From Bifidobacterium breve (GTDB lineage: Bacteria; Actinomycetota; Thermoleophilia; Miltoncostaeales; Miltoncostaeaceae): 33,221 nucleotides of DNA. Below are positions 2,360 to 12,816 of the stretch, piece by piece (position 1 is the first letter of the stretch; each line of letters opens with the position of its first letter). The notes below the pieces were generated by a model. That model searched no databases. It was not told where the DNA came from and saw only the letters and a program-made list of their open reading frames with translations. The stretch spans positions 1-33,221 of the forward strand of contig CAMCDF010000004.1 of the NCBI GenBank assembly GCA_945873475.1, read 5' to 3'. Position numbers and translations under genes: made by a program.

Positions 2360-4123
2360 GTGGCGGCTCCCGGAGTTGGCTCCATCCGCACACTGAACCC
2401 CCGCTGGATCACCCTGCTGCTCATCGTGGCAGCCACAGCGGCGGCCACGGTGGTCACGTTCCGCATCACCATCACGCCGCTGGATGCCTCGCCGGTATTC
2501 CTCGTGTCGGCGGTGGGCATGGTGCTGCTGGCCCGCTTCGGGCGCCGGGCATGGCCGGCGTTCGCACTGGGAGACGTGATCGGTGAGTGGCTGGGCACCT
2601 CGCGACCGGCGCCGCTGATACTCGTGGTCGTCATCACGCACGTTCTCGTCGCCCTGGCCGGCGCCACCTGGATGGTCGACCACGACGCCTGGCCCGGCGA
2701 CCTGCGGACCTCCGTGCGCTACGTGGTGGGCGCAAGCGCACTGGCCATCGTCCAGGGCCTCGTGTTCGTCGCCATCTCGTACGGCCTCGACCCGCCGGCC
2801 GCAGGGGCAAGCCTGCGCAACGAGTTGCTGTGGGTGACCGTCGGGGTCCTCGTGGGGTTCCTGGTGGGCGGAACGTTCCTCGCCGCATGGCTTCGCGCCG
2901 AACGCGGCAGCAAGGGCGCGCTTCGGCCCGCATTCGGGCTGATCGCCATCACGGGTGCCGCCGCAGGCGGCCTGGCGGGGCCGATCAGCGTGATGGTCCC
3001 CCTGGCGCTCATGGGCACCCTGCTGCTCACCTCGCGCGCCGGGAGGCGCTGGGGCGGGGCTGCCCTGATCATCGTCGCTGCATGCGCCTTCGTGGGCGCC
3101 GAACGCGGAATGGCGCCGATGGGCGGGACGGGAACCACAGGGGCGCTGGCCAACGTGATGGTGACCCTCGCGCTGATGGGAGGGTTCGTCGCACTGCTGG
3201 GCGGCTATCGCCGCACGGGGCAGGCGGCCTCGCACCCGGTGGCCACCGTCGCCCTGGTGTTCGCCGGGATCATGCTGGTGGCCGGCATCTCAGGGGTGGG
3301 CGCCAGCGCCATCGTGGTGACGGACAACGCGCCGCTCGTCGTGGCCGGGATGTTCACAGCGGTTTCCGCGATAGGACTGGCCATCCTGCGCTCCGCGCGG
3401 CCCGTCGACCGGCCGCTGCACCGGCGTGGCGTGATGCTGGCGTCGTGCGCGGGGGTGCTCTATGCACTCAACCTCGCGCTGTACTTCGGTGCCGAGCCCC
3501 TCATCGGGCCCGGGGCCGCAACCGCATTGGCCATGATCAGCCCCCTTCCGGTGGTCATCCTGTCGGTCATCTTCCTGCGGCTGCGCACGTCGTGGGGGGT
3601 GGTGGCCGGTATCGCCATCATCGTCGGCGGCGCGCTGGTGGCGGCGATGGGGTCGTTGTCGAACCCCTGGGGCATTGCACTCGCCGTGTTGTCGGCCGTG
3701 GCATTCGCCGGGTCGGTCATCGTCACGCGCAAGGCCCTTGGGCAGGGCGGCATCATCGAGATCGCGCTGGTCTCCACCGCATCGGCGGCAATCGTGTCGC
3801 TGGTGGCCGGGGTCATCGTCTCGGGCCCCGGAGCACTGCTGCTGCCCGCAGACCAGATTCGCGCAATCGCCCTCGCCGCGCTGGGAGCGCAGCTGGTGCC
3901 GATACTCGGTCGCACCTGGGCGCTCGAGCACATGGGGGCCGATCTGGTGGGCGCCGAGGGCGTGCTCGGCCCGGCATCGACCGGCCTGCTGGCGTTCTGG
4001 TTGCTCACGCCGCCCGATGCCGCCACCCAGTGGATAGGACTTCTCGTCATCGCCGCCGGCGCGGTGCTGGCGGCCCTCGCCGGCGGGCGCGTTACCCGGC
4101 CCCCCGGACCAGCCGACCCCTAG
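2360..4123 (+). CDS. Multi-TM protein: N-terminal MASE1-like sensor membrane region fused to C-terminal EamA/DMT-type transporter domain
   Basis: 587 aa, GTG start 18 nt after the tRNA; N-terminal ...SPVFLVSAVGMVLLARFGRRAWPAFALGDVIGEWL resembles MASE1; C-terminal ...GAATALAMISPLPVVILSVIFLRLRTSWGVVAGIAIIVGGALV resembles EamA. Confidence 0.7.
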   Translation: MAAPGVGSIRTLNPRWITLLLIVAATAAATVVTFRITITPLDASPVFLVSAVGMVLLARFGRRAWPAFALGDVIGEWLGTSRPAPLILVVVITHVLVALAGATWMVDHDAWPGDLRTSVRYVVGASALAIVQGLVFVAISYGLDPPAAGASLRNELLWVTVGVLVGFLVGGTFLAAWLRAERGSKGALRPAFGLIAITGAAAGGLAGPISVMVPLALMGTLLLTSRAGRRWGGAALIIVAACAFVGAERGMAPMGGTGTTGALANVMVTLALMGGFVALLGGYRRTGQAASHPVATVALVFAGIMLVAGISGVGASAIVVTDNAPLVVAGMFTAVSAIGLAILRSARPVDRPLHRRGVMLASCAGVLYALNLALYFGAEPLIGPGAATALAMISPLPVVILSVIFLRLRTSWGVVAGIAIIVGGALVAAMGSLSNPWGIALAVLSAVAFAGSVIVTRKALGQGGIIEIALVSTASAAIVSLVAGVIVSGPGALLLPADQIRAIALAALGAQLVPILGRTWALEHMGADLVGAEGVLGPASTGLLAFWLLTPPDAATQWIGLLVIAAGAVLAALAGGRVTRPPGPADP

Positions 4124-5064
4124 GCGGTACCGGGCGCCCGGGGCGGATCGAGGCGATCAATGGCCGCCGCAACGGCGGCCTCGTCGGCGAACACGAGCTC
4201 CACGATGACCCTGCCCTTCGCCGCGGAGCGCACGCGCACCGGGGCGTCGAAGACACCGGCGAAGGCGTCGATCGCCTCGTCCGTGATGCCCGGCGCGGGG
4301 CGCCCGGCGCGTGCGGCGCGCGATGGCTCATCGGTGTTCGCCCGGGCGAGGTCCTCGGTGGCCCTTACGGAAAGTCCCTGCTCAGAAGCAGCTTTTGCCA
4401 CGGCGCGGCGTCGCTTGGCCCCGTCGGCCATGAGGATCGCCCGCCCATGCCCCTCGGTGAGGGTGCCCACCACGAGCATCTCCTGCACGTCGTCGGGCAG
4501 CTCGAGCAGGCGGATGAGGTTGGCCACCGACGACCGGCTGCGGCCCACGCTGCGGGCCACGTCGGCCTGCGTCTGCCCGAAGTCCTCCACCAGGGCGGCC
4601 AGGGCCTGGGCGGTCTCCACGGGGTCCAGGTCCTGGCGCACCAGGTTCTCGACCAGGCCCACCTCGAGGCGCTCGCGCTCGTCGGCATCGCGCACGACCG
4701 CGGGGAGCTCGGCGAGCCCGGCGATCTGCGCGGCGCGCCACCTGCGCTCACCGGCGATCAGCTCGTAGTCACCCCCGCCGAGATCGCGCACCACCACCGG
4801 CTGGATCAAACCGGTTGACGCGATCGACTCGGCCAGCGCGGCAAGGGCCTCGTCGTCGATGCGCCGCCGCGGCTGGGCGGTGTTGGGACGAATGCGCTGT
4901 ACCGGCAGCACCAGCAGGCGCTCGCCGGTGGCAGTGGCGGCGGGCGGGCCGGGCGAGGGGGCGTCAACCGGGGCGTCAACCGGCGGGGCGACGGCCACGG
5001 GTGCATCACCCAGCAGCGTGGACAGGCCCCGCCCCAGACGCTTGGACGGCTTCTTCTCAGCCAC
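4120..5064 (-). CDS. parB: Chromosome partitioning protein ParB
   Basis: KRLGRGLSTLLGD N-terminus, ELIAGERRWRAAQIAGL, GLVENLVRQDLDPVETAQAL motifs. Confidence 0.97.
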   Translation of the reverse strand: MAEKKPSKRLGRGLSTLLGDAPVAVAPPVDAPVDAPSPGPPAATATGERLLVLPVQRIRPNTAQPRRRIDDEALAALAESIASTGLIQPVVVRDLGGGDYELIAGERRWRAAQIAGLAELPAVVRDADERERLEVGLVENLVRQDLDPVETAQALAALVEDFGQTQADVARSVGRSRSSVANLIRLLELPDDVQEMLVVGTLTEGHGRAILMADGAKRRRAVAKAASEQGLSVRATEDLARANTDEPSRAARAGRPAPGITDEAIDAFAGVFDAPVRVRSAAKGRVIVELVFADEAAVAAAIDRLDPPRAPGTA

Positions 5065-5818
5065 GCTGTGCGACCTCCTTGGCCACCTCGAAATAGGCGT
5101 CCGCCGCCGCGCAGTGCGGGTCGTAGCGGATCACCGGCTCGCCGAACGACGGCGACTCGGTCACGCGCACGTTGCGCGGGATCACCGTCTGGAACACGTC
5201 GCCAGGAAAATGCCTGCGTACCTCGGCAATAACCTCGCCGCTGATGCGCGTGCGGGGGTCGTGCATGGTCATCAGGATGCCGCTCACGCGCAGCGCGGGG
5301 TTCAGGCGGGCCCGCACCTCACCGATGGTCTCCATCAGCCGCGAGAGGCCCTCCAGGGCGTAGTACTCGCACTGCACCGGCACGATCAGCCGGTCGGCAG
5401 CCACCAGGGCGTTGACCGTCACCAGGTCGAGCGAGGGCGGGCAGTCCACGAATACGTACGGATACTCGGCGGCGGCACCCGCCAGGGCCGCCTTCATGAG
5501 GCCCTCGCGGCCTTCGCGATCCACCAGCTCCACAGCGGCGCCCGCGAGATCGGCGCTTGCGGGCACCAGGTCGAGGTTGGGCACCACCGTCGGAATGCGG
5601 GCAGCGGTCACCGATGCACCATCCAGCAGCACATCGGCCATCGTGAGGGCATCCGGACCCGGCCTCTCGCCGGCCAGCACACCGCTGGTGGCGTTGGCCT
5701 GCGGGTCGGCATCCACCAGCAGCACCCTCGTGCCCGCCTCGGCCAGGCACGCGGCGATGTTGATGGTCGAGGTCGTCTTGCCCACCCCGCCCTTCTGATT
5801 CGCGACGGCGTAGATCAT
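5057..5818 (-). CDS. parA: Chromosome partitioning ATPase ParA/Soj
   Basis: MIYAVANQKGGVGKTTSTINIAACLAEAG deviant Walker A; overlaps parB start. Confidence 0.97.
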   Translation of the reverse strand: MIYAVANQKGGVGKTTSTINIAACLAEAGTRVLLVDADPQANATSGVLAGERPGPDALTMADVLLDGASVTAARIPTVVPNLDLVPASADLAGAAVELVDREGREGLMKAALAGAAAEYPYVFVDCPPSLDLVTVNALVAADRLIVPVQCEYYALEGLSRLMETIGEVRARLNPALRVSGILMTMHDPRTRISGEVIAEVRRHFPGDVFQTVIPRNVRVTESPSFGEPVIRYDPHCAAADAYFEVAKEVAQRG

Positions 5819-8983: not shown

Positions 8984-9119
8984 TCATCCACACATGTGGA
9001 CATTCCTGTGGATAACTCTCATTTTACCTGCTCAGGGCCGCTTGCGGTCGCACGGATTCATGTGTTGGCGCAACCCGCAACCACGTTTTTCCCGCATAGA
9101 CGGGGTGTGTTCATCCACA
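8984..9119. other. DnaA-box cluster, left part of candidate oriC
   Basis: TGTGGATAA at 9007-9015 (perfect consensus), TCATCCACA at 8984-8992 and 9111-9119, inverted repeat TCCACA-CA-TGTGGA at 8987-9000. Confidence 0.7.
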
Positions 9120-9172
9120 GGCCCGCCGCGACCGGTTTCGGGCCATTCCCCATTGGTAGCGTCCCGCGCCCG

Positions 9173-9901
9173 ATGAGCACGGACCTCCCCGACACCATCA
9201 GCGGCACGGAGCTGCACGGCAGCACCTATGTGGTGCGGGTCGCCGTGCACCGTGCCTCGCTCGAGCCCCCGGCCATCACCGAGATCCGCGACATCGCGCC
9301 GGCGCCCATCATCGAGTCGACGTTCTCCCATGTGGCGCAGATCTCGTCCGTGCCCCCGCTCGCGCTGCGCGAGATCATCGAGAACCTGGTGCACGCCGAC
9401 TTCCGTGACGCCCTGGTCACGGTGCTGGACGCCGGGCGCACCGTGCGCGTGTCCGACAGGGGCCCGGGCGTGCCGGACCCCCGCCGCGCCATGGAGCCCG
9501 GCTACACGACGGCCGACGAGAGGATCCGGCAGATCGTGCGCGGCGCGGGGTCGGGCCTGGCGCTGGCATCGGGGCTGGTGGCCGCAGAGGGTGGGTTGCT
9601 CGAGCTGGAGGACAACCTCGGTGGCGGCACGGTGGTGACCATCACGGTCGACGCACCGCCGGCCCCCGACGATGCGGGGGTGTCCGGCCAACCCAACGAT
9701 GTGCAGCGCAGCCTGCTCGCCCTGCTGCTGGAGATGGCCCCGGCTCATCCAGAGACCATGGCCCGCGAACTGGGGCTTCCCCTGGGCGTGGTGGGCCGCG
9801 AGCTCGTGTTGTTGGAGCACCGCGGCCTGGTGGCGCGCTTCGCCGATGGCGGGCGCGTGCTCACCGAGCGCGGTGCGGCGATCGTGGCGACGCTCTTCTA
9901 G
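9173..9901 (+). CDS. GHKL-type (Bergerat fold) ATP-binding protein with C-terminal winged-helix-like region, upstream of dnaA
   Basis: Within ORF 8750-9901, likely start ATG 9173. N-box-like LREIIENLVHADF, G1-like VSDRGPGVPDP, G2-like GAGSGLALASGLVAAEGG...GGGTVVTITV; C-terminus LLALLLEMAPAHPETMARELGLPLGVVGRELVLLEHRGLVARFADGGRVLTERG is wHTH-like. Confidence 0.72.
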   Translation: MSTDLPDTISGTELHGSTYVVRVAVHRASLEPPAITEIRDIAPAPIIESTFSHVAQISSVPPLALREIIENLVHADFRDALVTVLDAGRTVRVSDRGPGVPDPRRAMEPGYTTADERIRQIVRGAGSGLALASGLVAAEGGLLELEDNLGGGTVVTITVDAPPAPDDAGVSGQPNDVQRSLLALLLEMAPAHPETMARELGLPLGVVGRELVLLEHRGLVARFADGGRVLTERGAAIVATLF

Positions 9902-9904
9902 GCC

Positions 9905-11326
9905 ATGGGCGCAGGAATACCGCTCATCCAGGATCAGGATCGCCTCGAGGCCGTGTGGGCGCAGGTGCTCGAGCGCCTGCGTGGACTGCTGAACGGCGCC
10001 ACCTACAGCCTCACCTTCGAGCGTGCGCGTGCGCTGGGCTTCGACGGCGGGCGGTTCCGCATCGGGGTCGAGACCGAGTTCGCACGCGGCTGGATCGTGC
10101 AGCGCTACGACTCCCTGGTTCGCGACGCCCTGTTCGAGGTGCTCGGCCAGGACGTCGTGGTCGCTGTTGAGGTGGTCGCCCCCGCACCGGTGGAGGGCGG
10201 TACGCCGCAGTCCCGCATGGCACCCCCGGCGCCCGCGCCCGAGCCGCCGCGACCGCCTGCGCCCAACGACATCTCGGCCCGCCTGCAGGGCCGCTTCACC
10301 TTCGATGCCTACGTCATCGGTCCGAGCAACAGGTTCGCCCATGCCGCGGCACTCGCCGTGGCGGAGACGCCCGCGCGCGCCTACAACCCCCTCTTCGTCT
10401 ACGGCGAATCGGGCCTGGGCAAGACCCACCTGCTGCATGCGATCGGCCACTACACAGCCGATAACCACCCGGGGCTCTCGGTGCGCTACGTGTCGGTGGA
10501 GACCTTCACGAACGAATTCATCAACGCCCTGCGTGATGGAGGCATCAGGTCGTTCAAGGACAGGTACCGCAGCACCGACATCCTGTTGATCGACGACATC
10601 CAGATGCTGGAGGGCCGCGAGCAGACGCAGGAGGAGTTCTTCCACACCTTCAACGCGCTGCACGAGCACGGCAAGCAGATCGTGATCTCGAGCGACCGCC
10701 CGCCGAGCGCCATCAAGACGCTCGAGGACCGCCTGCGCTCGCGGTTCGAGATGGGCCTCATCACCGACGTGCAGCCGCCCGACCTGGAGCTGCGCATCGC
10801 CATCCTCCGCAAGAGGGTGATGACCGACGGCTACCAGATACGCGATCCCGAGGTTCTCTCGTTCATCGCGGCGCGGGTGTCGACGAACGTGCGCCAACTC
10901 GAGGGCGCCCTCATCCGCGTGGTCGCGCACTCGTCCATCTCCGGCCGGCCTGTGACGGTCGAACTCGCCCAGGAGGTCCTGACCGACCTCTTCCCGGGGG
11001 GAGACGGCGAGGTGCGCATGGACCTCATCCAGGAGGCCGTGGCGCGCCACTACTCGATATCGCTCGACGAGTTGGTGGGCGAGAAGCGCACCAAGCGCGT
11101 CGTCATGCCCCGGCAGGTGGCCATGTACCTGTGCCGCGAGCTCACCGACTCGTCGCTGCCGGCCATCGGCAGGGCATTTGGTGGCAGGGATCACACCACC
11201 GTCCTGTACGCCGTGCAGAAGGTGACGAAGCAGATGGCAGAGGGTGGCGACCTGTACCAGGCCGTGCAGACCCTCACCTCATCGCTGACCGGCGCGTCCT
11301 CGCCGACGGCGACCACCCGCCCCTGA
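9905..11326 (+). CDS. dnaA: Chromosomal replication initiator DnaA
   Basis: NPLFVYGESGLGKTHLLHAIGHY Walker A, ILLIDDIQMLEGREQTQEEFFHTFN Walker B, GRAFGGRDHTTVLYA DnaA signature. Confidence 0.99.
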   Translation: MGAGIPLIQDQDRLEAVWAQVLERLRGLLNGATYSLTFERARALGFDGGRFRIGVETEFARGWIVQRYDSLVRDALFEVLGQDVVVAVEVVAPAPVEGGTPQSRMAPPAPAPEPPRPPAPNDISARLQGRFTFDAYVIGPSNRFAHAAALAVAETPARAYNPLFVYGESGLGKTHLLHAIGHYTADNHPGLSVRYVSVETFTNEFINALRDGGIRSFKDRYRSTDILLIDDIQMLEGREQTQEEFFHTFNALHEHGKQIVISSDRPPSAIKTLEDRLRSRFEMGLITDVQPPDLELRIAILRKRVMTDGYQIRDPEVLSFIAARVSTNVRQLEGALIRVVAHSSISGRPVTVELAQEVLTDLFPGGDGEVRMDLIQEAVARHYSISLDELVGEKRTKRVVMPRQVAMYLCRELTDSSLPAIGRAFGGRDHTTVLYAVQKVTKQMAEGGDLYQAVQTLTSSLTGASSPTATTRP

Positions 11327-11347
11327 CAGCGGTGTCATAGGGGGTAC

Positions 11348-11368
11348 CCCGCTCAGAGCGGGTTTTTT
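11348..11368 (+). terminator. Rho-independent terminator downstream of dnaA
   Basis: CCCGCT-CAG-AGCGGG stem-loop followed by TTTTTT. Confidence 0.8.
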
Positions 11369-11404
11369 CCGTGCCCCCGCACTGTGGGCACACGAAGCCT
11401 TTTC

Positions 11405-11602
11405 TGTGGAAATCCTGTGGATAAACCACTGGACTCTGGACCACCCCTCAACAGGTGTCCCAAGGCCAGCCCCCAAGCCGTTTTCACCCTGTGGACGGCT
11501 GTGGGTGGATCGGCGTTTTCGCACACTCCGCCCACAGGTCATCCACAGAGTTGAAAACTATCCATGAGCAGGGCCAACCCCTGTGTTTCAACCGATTCCA
11601 CA
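11405..11602. other. DnaA-box cluster in dnaA-dnaN intergenic region, right part of candidate oriC
   Basis: TGTGGATAA at 11416-11424 (perfect), TCATCCACA at 11539-11547, degenerate boxes at 11405-11413, 11490-11498, 11500-11508, 11594-11602; followed by a locally AT-richer stretch about 11605-11665. Confidence 0.8.
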
Positions 11603-11712
11603 GGACCTATGGTTACTACGACCCTCTCTCAATTCATTTCTTCACCATCACCACCGACATGTTCTGTCGTGGGACGGGGCGGGGCCATCCGGACACGGGG
11701 TACGCTGCCGCC

Positions 11713-12816
11713 GTGCGACTGACCTGCCCCCGCGACGAACTGGCGAGCCGACTGGCGCTGGCATCCCGGGCAGCCTCGAGCAAGGGCACCATCCCGGTGC
11801 TGGCCAACGTGTTGCTGAAGGCCGAGGAAGGCCTGGTGGAGTTGGCGTCCACCGACATGGAGGTGTCGCTGAGGGTTCCCCTCGACGATGCCGGCGTCGA
11901 GGAGCACGGCGCCGTGGTGCTGCCCCGCCTCGCAGCCGACCTGGTGCGCAGCATGGCCCCCGGCCCGGTGACCCTGGTGCACAACCAGAACGAGGGGCAG
12001 GTGCAGATATCGGGCGGCGGATCATCGTTCAGCCTGAACTGCCACCAGGCGGGCGAGTACCCCGAGCTGCCGGGTGACACCGGAACGGGAATCCAGATTC
12101 CCTCCGCGGCCTTCGTGGAGTGCGCCGAGCGCGTGGTTCGTGCCGCATCGCGGGACGAGACACGGCCGGTTCTCACCGGCGTTCTCGTGCGCATCGGCCC
12201 CGACGGCCTGACCATGGCCGCCACCGACAGCTACCGCCTCGCCGTGAGGACGGTGCCGCTGAACGACGCACCCGCAGAGACCCGCGAGGCGATCCTGCCG
12301 GCGCGCGCCGTGGCCGAGGCCACGCGCCTGGCCGGGCAGGCAGGCGACTCCGACGTGGAGGTCGTGCTGGGTGAGTCGCAGGCCACCATCCGGTGCGGCG
12401 GAATCCGCCTCACCACGCGCCTGATCGACGGTCAGTTCCCCGACTACCGCCAGCTCATCCCCGCCGAGTTCGAGCATGACGTGCGGCTCGACCGTGCGGA
12501 GTTCCTGGGCGTGCTCACCCGTATCGGCGTGCTGGCGCAGCGCACGGCGCCACTGCGGCTGTCATTCGAGCAGGGTCAGCTCACCGTGGCGACGGCGAGC
12601 GAGCAGGTGGGCGAGGGCCGTGAGTCGATGCCGGCCCCCTACACCGGTGAGCCGCTCGAGATCGGCTTCAACGCCGACTTCCTGCGGGAGGGCGTTGACG
12701 GCATCGACGGCGACGAGGTGCGACTGGGGCTCATCAGCCCCCTGCGCCCCGGACTCCTGAGGGGGGCGGAAGATGAGCACCGCTACCTCCTCATGCCCAT
12801 CCGCCTCCCGGGATAG
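11713..12816 (+). CDS. dnaN: DNA polymerase III subunit beta (sliding clamp)
   Basis: GTG start at 11713 inside ORF 11455-12816: MRLTCPRDELASRLALASRAASSKGTIPVLANVLLKAEEG...YLLMPIRL. Confidence 0.96.
   Translation: MRLTCPRDELASRLALASRAASSKGTIPVLANVLLKAEEGLVELASTDMEVSLRVPLDDAGVEEHGAVVLPRLAADLVRSMAPGPVTLVHNQNEGQVQISGGGSSFSLNCHQAGEYPELPGDTGTGIQIPSAAFVECAERVVRAASRDETRPVLTGVLVRIGPDGLTMAATDSYRLAVRTVPLNDAPAETREAILPARAVAEATRLAGQAGDSDVEVVLGESQATIRCGGIRLTTRLIDGQFPDYRQLIPAEFEHDVRLDRAEFLGVLTRIGVLAQRTAPLRLSFEQGQLTVATASEQVGEGRESMPAPYTGEPLEIGFNADFLREGVDGIDGDEVRLGLISPLRPGLLRGAEDEHRYLLMPIRLPG

Follow-up and report, generated by a model that had tools for sequence, protein, structure and literature searches.

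A winged-helix GHKL ATPase encoded directly upstream of dnaA: a probable, hitherto unrecognised regulator of DnaA or the replication origin

The control of replication initiation is largely an open field outside E. coli, B. subtilis and Caulobacter. Among the known regulators of DnaA, Soj/ParA, YabA, SirA, DnaD, Hda and DiaA/HobA are small proteins that act by binding either DnaA itself or the origin, and to our knowledge none of them is a GHKL ATPase. Hda and Soj are nucleotide-gated regulators of DnaA (PMC5295017). The protein described here is small like these regulators and would, as they do, act on DnaA or the origin. Its closest described counterparts by fold and sequence are others: the RsbT/SpoIIAB/RsbW group of Ser/Thr kinases and anti-sigma factors (HATPase_c_2), the CA domains of histidine kinases (HATPase_c), and a GHKL/winged-helix protein of known structure (PDB 3lmm). 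The last of these we take to be a DIP2311-type protein with an AlbA/GHKL/wHTH architecture; we know of no report that DIP2311-type proteins are linked to dnaA.

The gene lies in the window, by which we mean the whole stretch of 33,221 nucleotides analysed, corresponding to the oriC region of a 1.66-Mb genome assembled in 153 contigs (93% complete), to which Miltoncostaeales/Thermoleophilia MAGs are the closest among named relatives. Its open reading frame extends from the ATG at 9173 to the TAG at 9899–9901, and the ATG of dnaA at 9905 is three bases past the stop codon. The protein and its parts are as follows.

9173–9901, + strand: GHKL ATPase and winged-helix protein linked to dnaA, 242 aa (Pfam, AlphaFold, orthologues 5′ of dnaA in ~130 genomes)
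9371–9397, + strand: N box EIIENLVHA, residues 67–75, with E67, N71 and H74 (91-member alignment)
9452–9490, + strand: G1 box and start of the lid, SDRGPGVPDPRRA, residues 94–106, with D95, G97 and G99 (91-member alignment)
9539–9565, + strand: G2 box RGAGSGLAL, residues 123–131 (91-member alignment)
9698–9898, + strand: C-terminal winged helix, residues 176–242 (DSSP of the model; HTH families in many members)

Domain architecture and ATP site

Pfam assigned HATPase_c to residues 64–162 (38.6 bits, E = 1.6e-9; cut-off 26.4) and DprA_WH to residues 173–226 (25.1 bits; cut-off 22.9), and HATPase_c was matched by all 45 members of the family alignment. The AlphaFold model (mean pLDDT 85.6) is confident and consists of two domains, a Bergerat-type domain at approximately 19–160 and a separate winged helix at 176–241; only ~60 residues stand ahead of the N box, and in the model they fold into two strands and a helix. 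A Foldseek comparison of this model yielded 129 PDB matches at E ≤ 0.001, headed by 3lmm and followed by histidine-kinase CA domains, which account for many of them. The model and its PDB matches thus display the alpha/beta sandwich of the GHKL/Bergerat superfamily, and the N, G1 and G2 boxes are present, including the N-box Asn and the G1 Asp. A sequence-only reading of this DNA had predicted a Bergerat fold followed by a helix-turn-helix-like tail; Pfam, AlphaFold and Foldseek recovered both, the tail being a winged helix according to DprA_WH and the model.

The catalytic residues are nearly invariant among the 91 aligned members: E67 occurs in 89, N71 and H74 in all; D95, G97 and G99 are each found in 91 of 91; and in the G2 region G124 and G128 are present in every member, G126 and R/K123 in 90. 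The ATPase domain has an intact nucleotide site. The motifs named in the sequence-only reading were mostly upheld, with EIIEN as the N box, the G1 box, and GAGSGLAL (124–131) as G2, but GGGTVVTI, also offered there as G2, forms the final strand of the ATPase domain.

Generic HMM matches of the protein are mostly to histidine kinases, with which it shares the ATP-site motifs, a HATPase_c score above the cut-off and the fold (Foldseek E about 4e-6). However, the 242-aa protein contains neither the HisKA/DHp helix nor a phosphoacceptor segment nor a sensor, and it carries a wHTH and no recognised membrane part. A DHp/HisKA hairpin with a phosphoacceptor His gave no match in Pfam and none above the cut-off in NCBIfam, and a receiver domain is absent, as the first reading had held; a two-component histidine kinase was rejected because the phosphoacceptor segment is missing. 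A second likeness is to the RsbT/SpoIIAB/RsbW group. Both have a Bergerat fold, an N-box Glu four residues ahead of the Asn, a DxGPGIpD..A..G[FY][ST]T lid, a GxGxGL motif and a domain that starts strand-helix-helix (N box), and the family consensus of the lid and G2 region, GPGixDxxrAxxPGfTTA...R..rGvGsGL, is RsbT-like. In hhalign comparisons the ATPase core matched an RsbT-type protein with a probability score of 97.3 (E = 1.9e-11) and SpoIIAB with one of 79.5, although HATPase_c_2 (15.8 bits; cut-off 27.4) and spIIAB (18.1 bits; cut-off 135) fell short of their family cut-offs. In all, the core comes closest to switch kinases of the RsbT type and to the CA domains of histidine kinases. Unlike the RsbT/SpoIIAB/RsbW proteins, the protein has an additional C-terminal winged helix and an extra final strand motif, (E)DNLGGGTVVT, and its gene is always linked to dnaA, with no recognised STAS partner. 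Compared with DIP2311 (3lmm), it shares the order of GHKL domain and winged helix and gives the best fold match (E = 7.7e-7), but identity is 16–18%, the rmsd over the whole chain exceeds 12 Å, and DIP2311 is about twice as long.

The winged helix is supported by DprA_WH above the cut-off, by several HTH families in other members and by the model, in which DSSP assigns helices at 176–188, 193–200 and 204–216, wing strands at 220–222 and 228–230, and a last helix at 232–241. In most lineages the recognition helix bears the DeoR/IclR/TrmB-like signature SxSTAYRDLxxLE; the window's family has lost SxSTAYRDL and has PLGVVGREL in its place. Since this helix is altered and the winged helix of the window's genus is near neutral to slightly acidic (net charge about −1), DNA binding is not assured in the window's family.

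In many lineages the protein begins with a short peptide of the form MxxF[LFS]x[RK][LFVI][LFI], from which a variable linker leads on to the ATPase domain (examples of the peptide are MPGVFSRLFRR, MESFLDKLLA and MKDFLQRVLEE). Coriobacteriia-like members start with M(A/S)DDFYPFVDSG, and the window's genus lacks the peptide. The peptide may serve as an amphipathic anchor in the membrane or as a docking motif.

The protein as a whole is covered by no model in Pfam, NCBIfam, PHROGs or PADLOC, and no description of it was found in the open-access literature, a scope that leaves out most subscription journals; the gene probably carries a generic annotation in databases. A PADLOC match to Csa3 (Type I-A; 15.7 bits), restricted to the winged helix, was not considered meaningful.

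Occurrence and linkage to dnaA

A family profile built from 45 sequences (threshold E ≤ 1e-15) matched 142 of 347 sampled genomes of Actinomycetota (76 of 218 genera), 26 of 250 genomes from the phylum of a Bacillota-labelled MAG and 2 of 151 from the phylum of an Armatimonadetes-labelled MAG; the sampling covered some phyla, most genomes were MAGs, and the names Bacillota and Armatimonadota are labels on MAGs. Within the window's class, a search of 299 genomes with the protein gave strong matches (E < 1e-30) in members of three families. Those genomes of the window's own family that had no match to the protein had none to dnaA either, so these absences look like assembly gaps; the single exception had a weaker and apparently partial dnaA match. 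The protein is ~80–86% identical to many members of the genus, and full-length homologues occur in three phyla. The gene is present once per genome; in the two cases of a double match, a single gene seems to have been split into fragments.

In ~130 genomes read at the DNA level (distinct loci that form a subset of all matches), the gene lies directly 5′ of dnaA with zero exceptions, which is the conserved dnaA/oriC linkage expected of a regulator of DnaA or the origin. At every locus with enough downstream sequence, dnaA is the first recognised gene to follow on that strand, and divergent rnpA, yidD and yidC lie upstream at most loci that reach far enough. Where complete circular genomes are numbered from dnaA, the gene falls at the extreme end of the numbering and hence still adjoins dnaA. 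No unlinked copy was seen in the profile searches of the sampled genomes or at the loci read. The gene is therefore no one-off insertion, one of the outcomes that the sequence-only reading had named as fatal to its proposal of an initiation regulator or DnaA partner: it adjoins dnaA in at least three phyla. The 3-nt junction noted in that reading holds at 9901/9905 but characterises the window's genus alone, the distance elsewhere ranging from an overlap of ~1 nt to a gap of more than 100 nt. Its statement that rpmH is the usual neighbour of dnaA agrees with Thermoleophilia relatives without the GHKL gene, in which the rpmH–dnaA gap is ~280–325 bp and mostly contains DnaA boxes (six loci in which rpmH was found).

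Distances among the GHKL proteins are correlated with distances among the neighbouring DnaA proteins (r = 0.62; none of 500 permutations as high), and most bacterial families form clades in the tree, with some deep mixtures. This pattern fits long vertical inheritance together with dnaA, accompanied by many losses and possibly some transfer. Many bacteria lack the gene, most of the sampled Thermoleophilia families among them, so it is not universally required. No relative was found on plasmids or in phages, and viral contigs gave only one weak, histidine-kinase-like match; a phage or plasmid origin was rejected.

The neighbours of the gene are rnpA, yidD, yidC, jag and rsmG on one side and dnaA, dnaN and recF on the other. 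No gene for a STAS antagonist was noticed among them in a scan that covered part of the window's ORFs. Separate genes for ParB (4120–5064) and a ParA/Soj-like protein (5057–5818) lie on the minus strand at 4120–5818, beside rsmG, jag, yidC, yidD and rnpA. This is a normal origin neighbourhood, and a known type of DnaA regulator thus coexists with the GHKL protein.

Origin and promoter region

The gene sits between an origin-like region of DnaA boxes and dnaA, in the following arrangement.

8984–9033, + strand: origin element made up of TCCACA-N2-TGTGGA, a perfect DnaA box TGTGGATAA (9007–9015) and CCTGCTC (9027–9033), conserved in the genus and in relatives both with and without the GHKL gene
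9086–9095, + strand: second conserved block TTTTTCCCGC, ~85 nt ahead of the ATG (genus footprint, 13 genomes)
9154–9162, + strand: extended −10 promoter TGGTAGCGT, ~10 nt ahead of the ATG (genus conservation)
9905–11326, + strand: dnaA, downstream in the same operon (ORF)
11327–11714, + strand: dnaA–dnaN intergenic region with a perfect DnaA box at 11416 (box scan)

Thirteen genomes of the genus share a triad of DnaA boxes upstream of the gene, TCCACA-N2-TGTGGA-N5-6-TGTGGATAA, followed by CCTGC, as well as a further TCCACA. The spacing from the triad to CCTGC(AAA) is ~11 nt, and the arrangement, a conserved origin element of Actinomycetota, also precedes dnaA at three other loci. As a control, relatives without the GHKL gene were found to carry a similar triad together with CCTGCAAA. 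Because they have both, the triad and CCTGC belong to an origin element rather than to an operator of the GHKL protein; CCTGC(AAA) was rejected in the latter role. The origin element may belong to the region that unwinds. No operator for the protein was found in the conserved upstream region. The second block, TTTTTCCCGC(tCA), is strongly conserved in the genus and lies between the DnaA boxes and the promoter. It resembles the CCTGCTC block, from which it is separated by a near-fixed distance of ~64 nt. The window holds only two perfect DnaA boxes, one upstream of the gene and one between dnaA and dnaN, where several partial boxes are also conserved.

The extended −10 sequence reads TTGGTAgCGT, and TTGGTA stands 20–23 nt ahead of the ATG in all 13 genomes of the genus. 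This near-fixed distance supports ATG 9173 as the start. The conserved −10 site directly ahead of ATG 9173 also spoke against a longer frame from TTG 8750, which would moreover cross the origin region, and that frame was rejected. Because the −10 sequence is so close to the ATG, the ghkl–dnaA mRNA is probably leaderless or nearly so and begins at the GHKL gene, and this promoter probably also drives dnaA in the window's genus. There is no clear Shine-Dalgarno sequence ahead of the dnaA ATG at 9905, and translation of dnaA may be coupled to that of the GHKL gene. For dnaN, a promoter of the leaderless type, GGTACGCT, seems to lie shortly ahead of the GTG (11700–11720) and is conserved in the genus.

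Candidate functions

We regard the protein as a probable, so far unrecognised regulator that acts on DnaA or on the replication origin. This reading is favoured by linkage in ~130 genomes without exception and with no unlinked copy, by near-invariant catalytic residues and the DeoR/IclR/TrmB-like SxSTAYRDL helix of most lineages, by a conserved promoter at the ATG with DnaA boxes upstream, and by the correlation of GHKL and DnaA distances. More specifically, we infer, tentatively and at slightly under even chances, that it is gated by nucleotide and regulates either the expression of dnaA or the firing of the origin. Such a protein would sense or use ATP, through its ATP/ADP state or through partner-dependent hydrolysis, and its dimer state would shift with the nucleotide. 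The winged helix would act at the rpmH–dnaA intergenic region, with its promoter and DnaA boxes, and so adjust dnaA expression or origin firing, and co-expression would lock the level of the protein to that of DnaA. Counting against a regulator are the lack of a detected operator, the near-neutral winged helix and altered recognition helix in the window's family, and the many bacteria that live without the gene; linkage by itself is no proof of function.

The main competing explanation, which we regard as rather unlikely but worth serious weight, is that the protein acts through contact with other proteins: as a serine kinase or anti-factor of the RsbT/SpoIIAB kind it would phosphorylate or bind DnaA, or else some other protein of initiation, with the winged helix as a docking or oligomerisation module. 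The hhalign results for core and lid point in this direction, the winged helix is not strongly basic, and the N-terminal peptide MxxF[LFS]x[RK][LFVI] of many lineages could be a docking motif; yet that peptide is missing in the window's genus, the HTH signature of most lineages is DNA-binding-like, and a STAS-type partner gene was not recognised beside the gene. It is less probable still that the protein has a job unrelated to initiation, for instance as a general transcription regulator, and is kept in place by old operon order, a shared promoter or the high gene dosage near the origin. The order rnpA-rpmH-dnaA-dnaN-recF-gyrB is very stable and may carry any inner gene along, and the gene is dispensable in many lineages, but an unrelated gene would be expected to have moved, or to have persisted elsewhere, at some time, whereas this one was never found apart from dnaA in ~130 genomes spanning phyla. 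That it is an orphan fragment of a histidine kinase, as its generic HMM matches might suggest, or a functionless chance ORF, is highly improbable given the identity within the genus, the homologues in three phyla, the invariant catalytic residues and the conserved promoter.

A single-copy gene that has kept its place next to dnaA in at least three phyla, and whose product has an invariant ATP site, offers a strong lead that lends itself to direct testing. There is about an even chance that it represents an ancient, unrecognised family of GHKL-type, ATP-dependent initiation regulators that link the synthesis or activity of DnaA to nucleotide state. If so, large parts of Actinomycetota and some Bacillota and Armatimonadota would possess regulators within the dnaA operon that differ in mechanistic class from Hda, SeqA, YabA, Soj and SirA.
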